Below, one piece after another: positions 7,529-55,073 of a stretch of 64,000 bases of DNA (position 1 is its first letter; each line of letters starts with the position of its first letter). The DNA lies in contig JANWUR010000014.1 of the NCBI GenBank assembly GCA_024958655.1, forward strand, positions 1 through 64,000, in the 5' to 3' direction. Source of the stretch: Cyanobium sp. FGCU6 (GTDB taxonomy: Bacteria; Cyanobacteriota; Cyanobacteriia; PCC-6307; Cyanobiaceae). The position numbers and the translations under genes were made by a program. The notes below the pieces were generated by a model. That model saw only the letters and a program-made list of their open reading frames with translations. It made no database searches and had not been told where the DNA came from.

Positions 7529-7913
7529 TCATGTCCTGCACAGCAGCTCATGCCGCACCATGTAGAAGTTGGAAAGTGCTGCCAGCACCTTCACCTTGCA
7601 ACGGTTCTAGTGGCTCCGCCACGCTCGGCCGTCGGCCTCGGTAGTTGCATGCCCCGCAGCCGGGTCTTCTGAAAGCCGAACTGCCGTTTGATCACTCGGA
7701 ACGGATGCTCCACCTTGGCGCGGAGGTGCGCCTAATGCAAGCAGAAGCCGTTCCGGCTAGGGCTGTCTCGATCAGATCATCAACCCGCCCCTCGGGGGTG
7801 TCCGGTAAGGCCCGGCGCTTGCCTGGGCGCATGGCAACCCGGAAGCCGATCCCCCGGCCTTGCATCTCCTCGCGCTTCTCAATTCCCTGATAGCCGGCAT
7901 CCGCGTAAACCAC
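7529..7913 (-). pseudogene. IS5-type transposase C-terminal remnant
   Basis: Reading the minus strand from 7913, VYADAGYQGIEKREEM and RVAMRPGKRRALPDTPEGRVDDLIE match IS5/IS1031-type DDE transposases around the conserved Tyr/Arg/Glu region. The frame is then shifted: [20 protein letters not shown] continues in another frame, and a third gives [18 protein letters not shown], the usual C-terminal end, stopping at 7529. The N-terminal half and both IS ends are absent. A short hairpin-rich sequence interrupts it at 7608-7643. Confidence 0.75.
7608..7643. repeat. Short hairpin-rich insertion inside the transposase remnant
   Basis: About 36 bp bounded by TAG...TAG that separates two conserved stretches of the transposase. 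It contains GTGGC TCC GCCAC (7610-7622), a perfect 5-bp stem, followed by GGCC GTC GGCC. The family does not normally have residues here, so it looks inserted. Confidence 0.45.
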
Positions 7914-21755: not shown

Positions 21756-22080
21756 TCCGAGCTGATGAGACTGCACTAGCAGAGTAGTTGTCGATTGCTC
21801 CATATGCCTTGGCTAATCAATGCGGTTTCAACAGTCTCTGTGATTTCGAGAGCCAAGAGCATGCAGGGGCTTTGCGATAATCCATGTTTCTGTGGATATA
21901 CTGATATAACCCTTGAATGGCTGACTTTCAGTTGGTGTTGGCGGGTGGGGCCAGGCCAGGGCTTACGAGGCATCCCGTGACAACACGGAAGCCGTGGGTA
22001 GTGGTACGGGCGCACTATGAGTTAATTGGGCTGGAGGGCTGAGCTTTGCCGGGTGGTTGTTTGCTGCGCGTTGCTGAACC
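21756..22080. other. Intergenic region with a kinase-tail scrap and conserved leader
   Basis: No gene. Around 21918-21966 the sequence matches the last codons of the kinase remnants further on (ADFQLVLAGG). It is followed by the same roughly 100-bp leader that precedes the Rpn-like copies at 23414 and 25112, including a CCGTG...CACGG inverted repeat. Confidence 0.6.
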
Positions 22081-22993
22081 GTGAAAACGGATCACTGGTT
22101 CTACGGGCTGTTCCAGAGCGCGCCGGATCTGGTCGCCTTGTTGTTGCCGCAAGGTGCCTCTGCAGCACCCTCGCTCGGGCCCGTAGCCGCAGGCTTCTCG
22201 CGAAGCGAGTTGCGCCTGGTGATGCCCTCTATCGCTTTGAGGCGCCGGAGCTGAAGGCGGCGAACCATCGCCTTGATGGGGCGTTCTGGCCTCGTTCAGC
22301 AGATACGGGCACAGCGGAACAGCCGGTGGTGCTGCTGGAGGTGCAGATGCACGGCAAGCCGGGGTTCAAGATCGGCTCGGCGCTCAGAGCCTTCGCTTAC
22401 TGCAGCTCCACCCGCAGGTGCAGCACCTGGCCGTGGTGGTGCTGGTGCCGCACTCGCGCCTCAACCTCGGCCCAGCCAGGCTGCCCCAGCAGCTGCAGGC
22501 GTTCGTGGATGGCGTGCTTTGGCTGAGCCTGGAAGAGCTGGGCCAGCAGGCCGATCTCGATCCGCTGCTCAGCCTGCTCACGCTGCCGGTGCGGCCGGAG
22601 GCCGAGCTGCAGGCCAGCTCCCAGCAGATCCTGGAACGCCGGCCGGATCTGCTTTCTGCCGTTCAAACTATCCTTCTGGAGCGGCTTCCCCTACTCACTC
22701 GCGAGGACCTCATGGAGTTCGCCACCATTCCCGCCAAAGACCTGCGCCACACCCGCGTCGCCCAGGAGTGGATTGAGGAAGGCCGGCAAGAGGGCCGGCA
22801 GGAGGGGCGGCTGGAAGGCGAAGCCAAAGTGGCCCTTCGCCAGCTGGACCGTCGCTGTGGCCCCCTCAGTAACGCCACCACGACCCGCATTCAGGCACTG
22901 CCGCTGGGGCAGCTGGAAGCCCTGGCGGAGGCACTGCTCGATTTCAGCGGCCCAGCCGACCTGGCCGCCTGGCTGGCCGAGCACGGCGGCTGA
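22081..22993 (+). pseudogene. Rpn-like (DUF2887) copy A, two frameshifts
   Basis: It starts as VKTDHWFYGLFQSAPDLVALLL at GTG 22081. At 22184 a 28-nt hairpin sequence replaces two bases of the intact copies (net +26), breaking the frame. It then reads correctly (APGDALYRFEAPELKAANHRLDG, VVLLEVQMH) until TTCAAG-ATCGG near 22369, where one C is missing. From 22418 the third frame gives an undamaged C-terminal half to DFSGPADLAAWLAEHGG. The last 400 bp are almost identical to copies B and C. Function is unlikely. Confidence 0.85.
22184..22211. repeat. 28-nt hairpin insertion in Rpn-like copy A
   Basis: Alignment to copies B and C leaves this stretch unmatched. It contains GCTTC TCGC GAAGC (22193-22206), a perfect stem with a 4-nt loop, and begins with TAG like the element at 7608. 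Confidence 0.6.
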
Positions 22994-23253: not shown

Positions 23254-23413
23254 TGGCGTGCAGGTCGGCTCCACGGGGCCACGGGGTCCAGCGTCTGGGT
23301 TGGTCAACCGTGAAAACACGGAAGCCTTGGATGATGGTACGGGAGTACTATGAGTTGGTTGGGTTGCAGGGCTGGCCTGTGTCGGTTGGTTGTTTGCTGC
23401 GCGTTGGCAAACC

Positions 23414-24325
23414 GTGAAAACGGATCACTGGTTCTACGGGCTGTTCCAGAGCGCGCCGGATCTGGTCGCCTTGCTGTTGCCGCAAGGTGCCTCTGCAGCA
23501 CCCTCGCTGGGGCCTGATGCGCCTGGGGATGCGCTGTACCGCTTTGATGCGCCGGAGCTGAAAGCGACGAACCATCGCCTCGATGGGGCGTTCTGGCCCA
23601 GAAGCGGAGATGTCGGCACGCCGGATCGGCCCGTGGTGCTGCTGGAGGTGCAGATGCATGCCAAACCGGGCTTCAAGCATCGGCTCGGCGCTCAGAGCTT
23701 TCGCTTTCTGCAGTTGCACCCTCAGGTGCAGCACCTGGCTGTGGTGGTGCTGGTGCCGCACCGGCGCCTCAACCTCGGCCCAGCCAGGCTGCCCCAGCAG
23801 CTGCAGGCGTTCGTGGATGGCGTGCTTTGGCTGAGCCTGGAAGAGCTGGGCCAGCAGGCCGATCTCGATCCGCTGCTCAGCCTGCTCACGCTGCCGGTGC
23901 GGCCGGAGGCCGAGCTGCAGGCCAGCTCCCAGCAGATCCTGGAACGCCGGCCGGATCTGCTTTCTGCCGTTCAAACTATCCTTCTGGAGCGGCTTCCCCT
24001 ACTCACTCGCGAGGACCTCATGGAGTTCGCCACCATTCCCGCCAAAGACCTGCGCCACACCCGCGTCGCCCAGGAGTGGATTGAGGAAGGCCGGCAAGAG
24101 GGGCGGCAGGAGGGGCGGCTGGAAGGCGAAGCTCGTGGCCGTGCCGCTGAGGCTGCTGTCGTTACCTTGCGCCTGCTGAACCGCCGCTGCGGCCCCCTCA
24201 GCAACGCCACCACGGCCCGCATCCAGGCACTGCAACTTGAGCGGCTGGAAGTCCTGGCCGAGGCACTGCTCGATTTCAGCGGCCCCGCCGACCTGGCCGC
24301 CTGGCTGGCCGAGCACAGCGGCTGA
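23414..24325 (+). CDS. Rpn-like (DUF2887) copy B, intact
   Basis: A 303-residue protein starting at GTG 23414 within CCGTGAAAACGG. The PD-(D/E)xK elements are intact: RFDAPELKATNHRLDGAFW (Asp) and VVLLEVQMH (Glu-x-Gln). Then come LDPLLSLLTLPVRPEAELQ, LRHTRVAQEWIEEG and a linker of three EGRQ/EGRL units. It has an extra ARGRAAEAAVVTLR insert before NRRCGPLSNATTARI that copies A and C lack. It is the longest copy and, with C, one of two apparently functional ones in the array. The predicted role is a DNA endonuclease that promotes recombination. Confidence 0.85.
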   Translation: MKTDHWFYGLFQSAPDLVALLLPQGASAAPSLGPDAPGDALYRFDAPELKATNHRLDGAFWPRSGDVGTPDRPVVLLEVQMHAKPGFKHRLGAQSFRFLQLHPQVQHLAVVVLVPHRRLNLGPARLPQQLQAFVDGVLWLSLEELGQQADLDPLLSLLTLPVRPEAELQASSQQILERRPDLLSAVQTILLERLPLLTREDLMEFATIPAKDLRHTRVAQEWIEEGRQEGRQEGRLEGEARGRAAEAAVVTLRLLNRRCGPLSNATTARIQALQLERLEVLAEALLDFSGPADLAAWLAEHSG

Positions 24326-25111: not shown

Positions 25112-25987
25112 GTGAAAACGGATCACTGGTTCTACGGGCTGTTCCAGAGCGCGCCGGATCTGGTCGCCTTGCTGTTGCCGCAAGGTGCCTCTGCAGCACC
25201 CTCGCTCGGGCCCGACGCGCCTGGTGATGCCCTCTATCGCTTTGATGCGCTGGAGCTGAAGGCGGCGAACCATCGCCTTGATGGGGCGTTCTGGCCTCGT
25301 TCAGCAGATACGGGCACAGCGGAACAGCCGGTGGTGCTGCTGGAGGTGCAGATGCATGCCAAACCGGGGTTCAAGCATCGGCTCGGCGCTCAGAGCTTTC
25401 GCTTTCTGCAGTTGCACCCGCAGGTGCAGCACCTGGCCGTGGTGGTGCTGGTGCCGCATCGGCGCCTCAACCTCGGCCCAGCCTTGTTGCCGCAGCAGCT
25501 GCAGGCGTTTGTGGATGGCGTGCAGTGGCTGAGCCTGGAGGAGCTGGGCTCCCAGCCGCAGCTCGATCCCCTGCTGAATCTGCTCACGCTGCCGGTGCGG
25601 CCGGAGGCCGAGCTGCAGGCCAGCTCCCAGCAGATCCTGGAACGCCGGCCGGATCTGCTTTCTGCCGTTCAAACTATCCTTCTGGAGCGGCTTCCCCTAC
25701 TCACTCGCGAGGACCTCATGGAGTTCGCCACCATTCCCGCCAAAGACCTGCGCCACACCCGCGTCGCCCAGGAGTGGATTGAGGAGGGCCGGCAGGAGGG
25801 GCGGCTGGAAGGCGAAGCCAAAGTGGCCCTTCGCCAGCTGGACCGTCGCTGTGGCCCCCTCAGTAACGCCACCACGGCCCGCATCCAGGCACTGCAACTT
25901 GAGCAGCTGGAAGCCCTTGCCGAGGCACTGCTCGATTTCAGCGGCCCCGCCGATCTGGCCGCCTGGCTGGCCGAGCACACCGGCTGA
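25112..25987 (+). CDS. Rpn-like (DUF2887) copy C, intact
   Basis: A 291-residue protein from GTG 25112, 115 bp after the kinase remnant. It has the same architecture as copy B: VKTDHWFYGLFQSAPDL, HRLDGAFW, VVLLEVQMH, VQWLSLEELGSQPQLDPLLN, LRHTRVAQEWIEEG, RRCGPLSNATTARI. The linker has two EGRQ/EGRL units instead of three and lacks the extra insert of copy B. Long blocks (about 200 bp around QASSQQILERRPDL) are identical to copies A and B, consistent with recent gene conversion. Confidence 0.85.
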   Translation: MKTDHWFYGLFQSAPDLVALLLPQGASAAPSLGPDAPGDALYRFDALELKAANHRLDGAFWPRSADTGTAEQPVVLLEVQMHAKPGFKHRLGAQSFRFLQLHPQVQHLAVVVLVPHRRLNLGPALLPQQLQAFVDGVQWLSLEELGSQPQLDPLLNLLTLPVRPEAELQASSQQILERRPDLLSAVQTILLERLPLLTREDLMEFATIPAKDLRHTRVAQEWIEEGRQEGRLEGEAKVALRQLDRRCGPLSNATTARIQALQLEQLEALAEALLDFSGPADLAAWLAEHTG

Positions 25988-54999: not shown

Positions 55000-55073
55000 G
55001 CTCCCTTAGCTCAGCCGGATAGAGCAGCTGCCTTCTAAGCAGCCGGTCGATGGTTCGAATCCATCAGGGGGCG
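55000..55073 (+). tRNA. tRNA-Arg (anticodon TCT)
   Basis: A 74-nt cloverleaf: acceptor GCTCCCT/AGGGGGC (one G-T pair), D-arm GCTC...GAGC, anticodon stem GCTGC/GCAGC with loop CTTCTAA (anticodon TCT), and T-arm ATGGTTCGAATCCAT. CCA is not encoded. The 3' end from the anticodon loop onward is repeated at 59390, marking it as an integration target. Confidence 0.95.

Follow-up and report, generated by a model that had tools for sequence, protein, structure and literature searches.

The window, by which we mean the whole 64,000-nucleotide stretch of the Cyanobium sp. FGCU6 contig analyzed here, contains between positions 22057 and 29395 (plus strand) an array of Rpn-like (DUF2887/DUF4351) gene copies, several of which are partial; such an array is also present at G000:C67. 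One of the Rpn-like copies has 22 matches in the source genome and matches in 27 of 42 genomes of the genus. Copy A is interrupted by a short sequence, element A, and its intact sibling, copy B (23390–24325), has Pfam matches to both DUF2887 and DUF4351. Comparison of the copies reveals the limits of the insertion: the filled site reads GGGCCCG[TAGCCGCAGGCTTCTCGCGAAGCGAG]TTGCGCC, and the empty sites read GGGCCTGATGCGCC in copy B and GGGCCCGACGCGCC in the copy at 25207. The T at position 22210, directly after element A, forms the junction, and the empty copies have an A there. Relative to both empty siblings in the window, copy A has a net gain of 26 bases at element A, and the Rpn-like reading frame is therefore lost. 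A hairpin insertion breaking copy A had been predicted at 22184–22211; it is present, with the insert proper occupying the segment shown in Table 1.

Table 1. Short insertions in the window, the genes that they interrupt, and an empty counterpart
Feature	Coordinates	Strand	Description
Element A, family A1	22184–22209	+	TA-GCC-GCA-GGC-TT-CTCGC-GAA-GCGAG; second hairpin 5 bp
Rpn-like copy A, broken by element A	22057–22990	+	intact sibling: copy B
Empty counterpart of element A site, third Rpn-like copy	25207–25223	+	70/72 flank bases alike
Element B (subfamily B1) with edge bases	7607–7645	-	hairpins GGCC-GAC-GGCC and GTGGC-GGA-GCCAC, adjacent
Third short insert (CTAGCCGGAACGGCTTCTGCTTGCATTA)	7733–7760	-	net +26, at Lys AAG codon of remnant
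IS5-like transposase, C-terminal remnant, interrupted by element B and third insert	7532–7892	-	

A second interruption predicted at 7608–7643, which splits a transposase remnant, is also present and corresponds to element B on the minus strand; the remnant is additionally interrupted by a third insert. When read on the minus strand, element B has a covariance match (7645–7607) of 62.2 bits, and it adds a net 35 bases between the residues RGM and NRC. The IS5-like designation of the remnant rests on its intact relatives (DUF772, DDE_Tnp_1). The third insert is probably a decayed relative of family A, as suggested by the common sequence TAGCC...GGCTTCTGC. Elements A and B had been described as both beginning with TAG, and this is so for element A, but element B on its own strand begins with CTACC and ends with CACTAG, so that the shared TAG start is partly a strand effect. 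There is no second copy of element A or element B within 3 mismatches in the window (and none in shuffles), and Rfam searches at gathering thresholds of the window and three loci returned a tRNA only. A tRNA gene lies in the window at 55000–55073 (plus strand).

Element B is clearly not unique, as the family B pattern (2 mismatches allowed) has 5 copies in the source genome. There are 23 copies in 11 of 60 related genomes, all of one genus, and none in the reversed control. A search of the GTDB collection with B patterns yields 35 stretches, of which 28 are cyanobacterial: 18 bear the names Cyanobium or Synechococcus (including WH 5701 and the complete SynAce01 genome) and 10 are from cyanobacterial MAGs. 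The other seven derive from unrelated bacteria and were taken as chance and left out of later counts; their second hairpin is unpaired in four cases. No match to the B pattern was found in viral contigs. A covariance search of the 42 genus genomes identifies 62 B matches (E≤1e-5) in 24 genomes, and a few of these matches have probably arisen by chance. The search also brought out a subfamily, B2, whose first stem is shorter. A covariance scan across the phylum gives a B match (E≤1e-4) in 4 of 292 genomes, namely the source genome, one more of the same genus, one of the same family, and a weak match (7.9e-5) in another family.

The structure proposed for family B combines a short outer stem with two hairpins next to each other, and across an alignment of 32 distinct elements 87.3% of it is paired. 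This alignment has 20 double-sided changes compared with 5.4 in shuffles (none of 500 as high); the search patterns fixed part of the second hairpin, with its two compensating positions left independent. A tandem G-A mismatch is located beside the first hairpin in 25 of the 32 elements, and standard pairs are found there in the remaining seven. Both hairpins are clear in 50 distinct B elements; C-GNA-G forms the second loop in every one of these, as the search patterns partly demanded, and the first loop in 35.

The exact sequence of element A occurs once in mismatch-only searches, and the element B covariance model does not recognize it. A family appears, with 12 matches in the source genome, when the second hairpin is allowed to vary, and element A as a lone sequence can therefore be rejected. 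The search pattern used, TAGCCGNAGGCN{0,7}GCGNAGC, has 109 matches in 38 of the 42 genus genomes, compared with 23 in the reversed control, and the family consensus is TAGCC-GNA-GGC-(TT)-CYGC-GNA-GCRG. Ten of the 109 matches are one motif, TAGCCGAAGGCGGCGTAGC, which looks like part of a conserved gene, the seven examined copies lying in similar flanks; when this motif is set aside, family A is present in 33 of the 42 genomes. Of 75 distinct A matches in the examined loci (TAGCCGAAGGCGGCGTAGC included), 59 possess a second hairpin of 4 bp or more, as do 2 of the 121 matches listed from viral contigs, where there are at least 121 matches and the A pattern is not specific. In 55 of the 59 the spacing is 2 or 4, in 55 the next base is T, and 35 read TAG; among the 59, TAG is preceded by G in 43, by C in 13, by A in two and by T in one. 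Pairing is maintained in the stem variants CTGC/GCAG, CCGC/GCGG and CGGC/GCCG, and in CTCGC/GCGAG of the window. Part of the likeness among elements in the loop and second hairpin was set by the search patterns.

The original prediction that the two insertions belong to a mobile small repeat family is supported as to mobile repeats, but the elements represent two related families of one design, A and B. We give next to no credence to chance hairpins or assembly noise, to which the single occurrence of the exact element A sequence could be attributed, given the recurrence in independent genomes, the controls, and the empty sites described below.

RNA and DNA folding of single element sequences gives structures no more stable than those of shuffles, and the evidence for element structure is thus comparative and not energetic. 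GNA loops, such as that of d(GCGAAGC), are unusually stable in DNA. A scan for double-GNA hairpins in a 363-kb sample of the source genome shows no excess (3, versus 0–16 for other loop types), and generic k-mer and hairpin enrichment in that sample gave no clear signal for families A and B. In the same sample, overlapping 14-mers present in ~17–21 copies resemble a single CRISPR-type repeat.

Empty sites are seen in intact transposases of the type that bears elements, and comparisons of this kind locate the insertion points. There are 97 flank-distinct B places, and some weak covariance matches among them are probably chance; an empty match was found for 41 of the 96 tested, the other 55 having none in the DNA examined. 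The net gain is 33, 35 or 36 bases, except in one copy, L169 (G000:C45:6646–6697), a B2 element in which part of the hairpin unit is tandemly duplicated and the net gain is 48 bases. The insertion point is at AA in 31 of the 41 empty sites, three of which (in a recombinase) come from a weak match (54/72), and at GAG rather than AAG in the other 10, which are B2 places in one HNH gene family. The cleanest pair, L046 and L119, has 72 of 72 flank bases alike, with CTC-AAG-AACC at the empty site and CTC-[CTACC...CACT]-AG-AACC at the filled one.

For family A, 34 of 68 tested places have an empty match and 34 have none in the DNA examined. The net gains are 24 bases in 20 places, 22 in seven, 25 in three, 23 in three, and 26 in one. 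At the insertion point the host has an A in 32 of the 34 (three of them placed with a shift of one) and a T in two; this host A is followed by A or T in 26 places, by G in four and by C in two. Filled copies mostly read T at the replaced host base, and L089 keeps the A. A split-protein scan of IS5-like and Rpn genes, in which insert sequence was not used, brought to light additional inserts that share this design. At six loci TAGACGNAGTC is accompanied by a hairpin of the GGCC type (net +23), and at one locus the insert (net +22) is closely related to element A.

Families A and B share an insertion rule, in which the element abuts, on the 5' side, a host A preceded by C or G; the target is often the Lys codon AAG and the host A is usually replaced. 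Exceptions to the rule are the ten B2 places with GAG and the family A places at which the host A precedes G (four) or C (two) or at which the host has a T (two). The target duplications suggested earlier as a sign of mobility are not seen at the empty/filled pairs, where the host A is replaced instead, and nothing points to an Rpn-like gene or the broken transposase as the source of mobility, both being hosts.

Pfam searches with representative host pieces, which name the hosts and give no share of each type, identify DUF772/DDE_Tnp_1 transposases, Transposase_mut, IstB_IS21, HTH_Tnp_1, Phage_integrase, DUF3427 and HNH; an IS630-like piece has a DDE_3 match below its cut-off, and two other pieces have no Pfam match. 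The transposase gene G010:C144 contains two inserts and is otherwise open, in three pieces. A run of related HNH genes is located at L164 (G015:C49:42500–51800), in which, at the same places, some genes have a B2 insert, some an A1 insert, and some are empty. At L161, L147, L163, L193 and similar loci in several genomes, B2 elements are situated at a similar place in integrase-type genes, adjoining the ATHL part of the active-site region.

Four compared places in G020 carry the same insert within a ~1.4 kb stretch that is 99–99.9% identical, and six places in this genome carry an identical A match; the near-identity of the insert-bearing stretches indicates that elements are also copied as passengers. 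It could be argued from these copies, and from the filling of the same HNH site in several genomes, that the elements are passengers only, ancient insertions copied along with IS elements and gene families and with no present mobility. This seems unlikely, as one element family occupies at least five different positions in one transposase type as well as unrelated genes, and in one pair a filled and an empty copy are identical at all 72 flank bases.

A separate question is whether the elements are in-frame protein inserts, tolerated or used by the host proteins, as with the Rickettsia palindromic elements, which are longer and in frame. These resemble the elements described here in being palindromic DNA inside coding genes, sometimes in frame, and A1 (24 nt) and B2 (33 nt) are multiples of three, with some HNH genes carrying them in frame and without a stop codon. 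Of 43 A1 places subjected to a frame test, two have short flanks and 20 gave weak calls; the 21 confident places include eight that are in frame and open, five in frame with a stop, four that are shifted, and four with flanks on different strands. In-frame tolerance of A1 inserts thus exists but is not the rule, and family A1 appears to differ in this from the Rickettsia elements. Because B1, A2, and the A and B elements of the window either break the gene or are not multiples of three, we consider a general role as in-frame inserts highly improbable. Ribosome bypassing of the inserts was also considered and rejected, as the codons before and after the insert differ between sites and elements are present in both orientations.

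The reading that we favor, at a probability of about 75%, is that these inserts are members of picocyanobacterial families of mobile elements that are very small and non-autonomous and work like the small dispersed repeats (SDRs) of Nostoc. As judged from the sequence comparisons, the unit is ~22–36 nt long and begins with a few bases, usually TA, continues with a pair of neighboring hairpins that have mostly C-GNA-G loops on one strand of the unit, and closes with a T. Its point of insertion is immediately 5' of an A that C or G precedes, most often the A that opens a Lys AAG codon, and this A is usually replaced. Insertion may proceed as a folded single strand, either DNA or RNA, perhaps with the help of a trans-acting factor other than a RAYT, and copies would survive chiefly in mobile and accessory genes that the cell can spare, to be carried with the host gene whenever that gene is itself copied. 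A more tentative and rather doubtful suggestion is that double C-GNA-G mini-hairpins spread by direct folded single-strand insertion 5' of A with base replacement, needing neither target duplication nor a known transposase, and that SDRs may share this mobility; to our knowledge there is no described mechanism for direct folded-strand insertion of this type.

If the favored reading is correct, a widespread group of photosynthetic bacteria would harbor some of the smallest known mobile DNAs, and the filled and empty sites would fix the insertion point of these elements almost to the base. SDR-like mobility would become directly testable, with the target rule, the strand-specific loops and the A-to-T junction as exact predictions, and the insertions would constitute a simple recurrent way of switching off transposases and other accessory genes.

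We found no description of these elements in picocyanobacteria in the open-licence literature searched, and the available text of two picocyanobacterial genome papers (PMC6337551, PMC9361551) mentions only CRISPR, tandem repeats and ISs. Families A and B resemble REPs and REPINs, palindromic units of 20–40 nt with compensatory stem changes according to the accessible portions of PMC3733652, PMC3116915 and PMC6006769, and GTAG-tagged REPs from some cyanobacteria are mentioned in the excerpted text of PMC3733652. Movement of the elements as REPs or REPINs by a RAYT (Y1 family) would fit with their size, their hairpin design and the many A copies that read GTAGCC (G before TAG in 43 of 59). However, a search for RAYT (PF01797) gave no match in the source genome and matches in 6 of the 42 genus genomes, and it is present in 3 of the 11 genomes with family B pattern matches. 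Because there is no Y1/RAYT in the source genome, mobility of the REP type is improbable. Wherever an empty site is known, the G that precedes TAG belongs to the host, the AG of TAG in family A pairs within or borders the first hairpin so that there is no free GTAG foot, and the elements differ from GTAG-tagged REPs and REPINs also in being intragenic.

The SDRs of Nostoc and its relatives (reportedly those of Elhai et al. 2008) are said to be very short, folded and dispersed. Families A and B are likewise very short and folded, and are dispersed in genes and other DNA. According to the available text of PMC4390886, SDR5 has its precise point of entry between bases three and four of GCGATCGC, immediately 5' of an A preceded by CG, as at the family A and B sites. 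Families A and B differ in that their target is mostly C/G-A-A/T and lies in picocyanobacterial accessory genes, and their likeness to SDRs is one of description. They have in common with SDRs a size of some tens of nucleotides, a dispersed occurrence, a conserved structure with compensatory changes, and precise insertion, which naturally empty sites show for families A and B.
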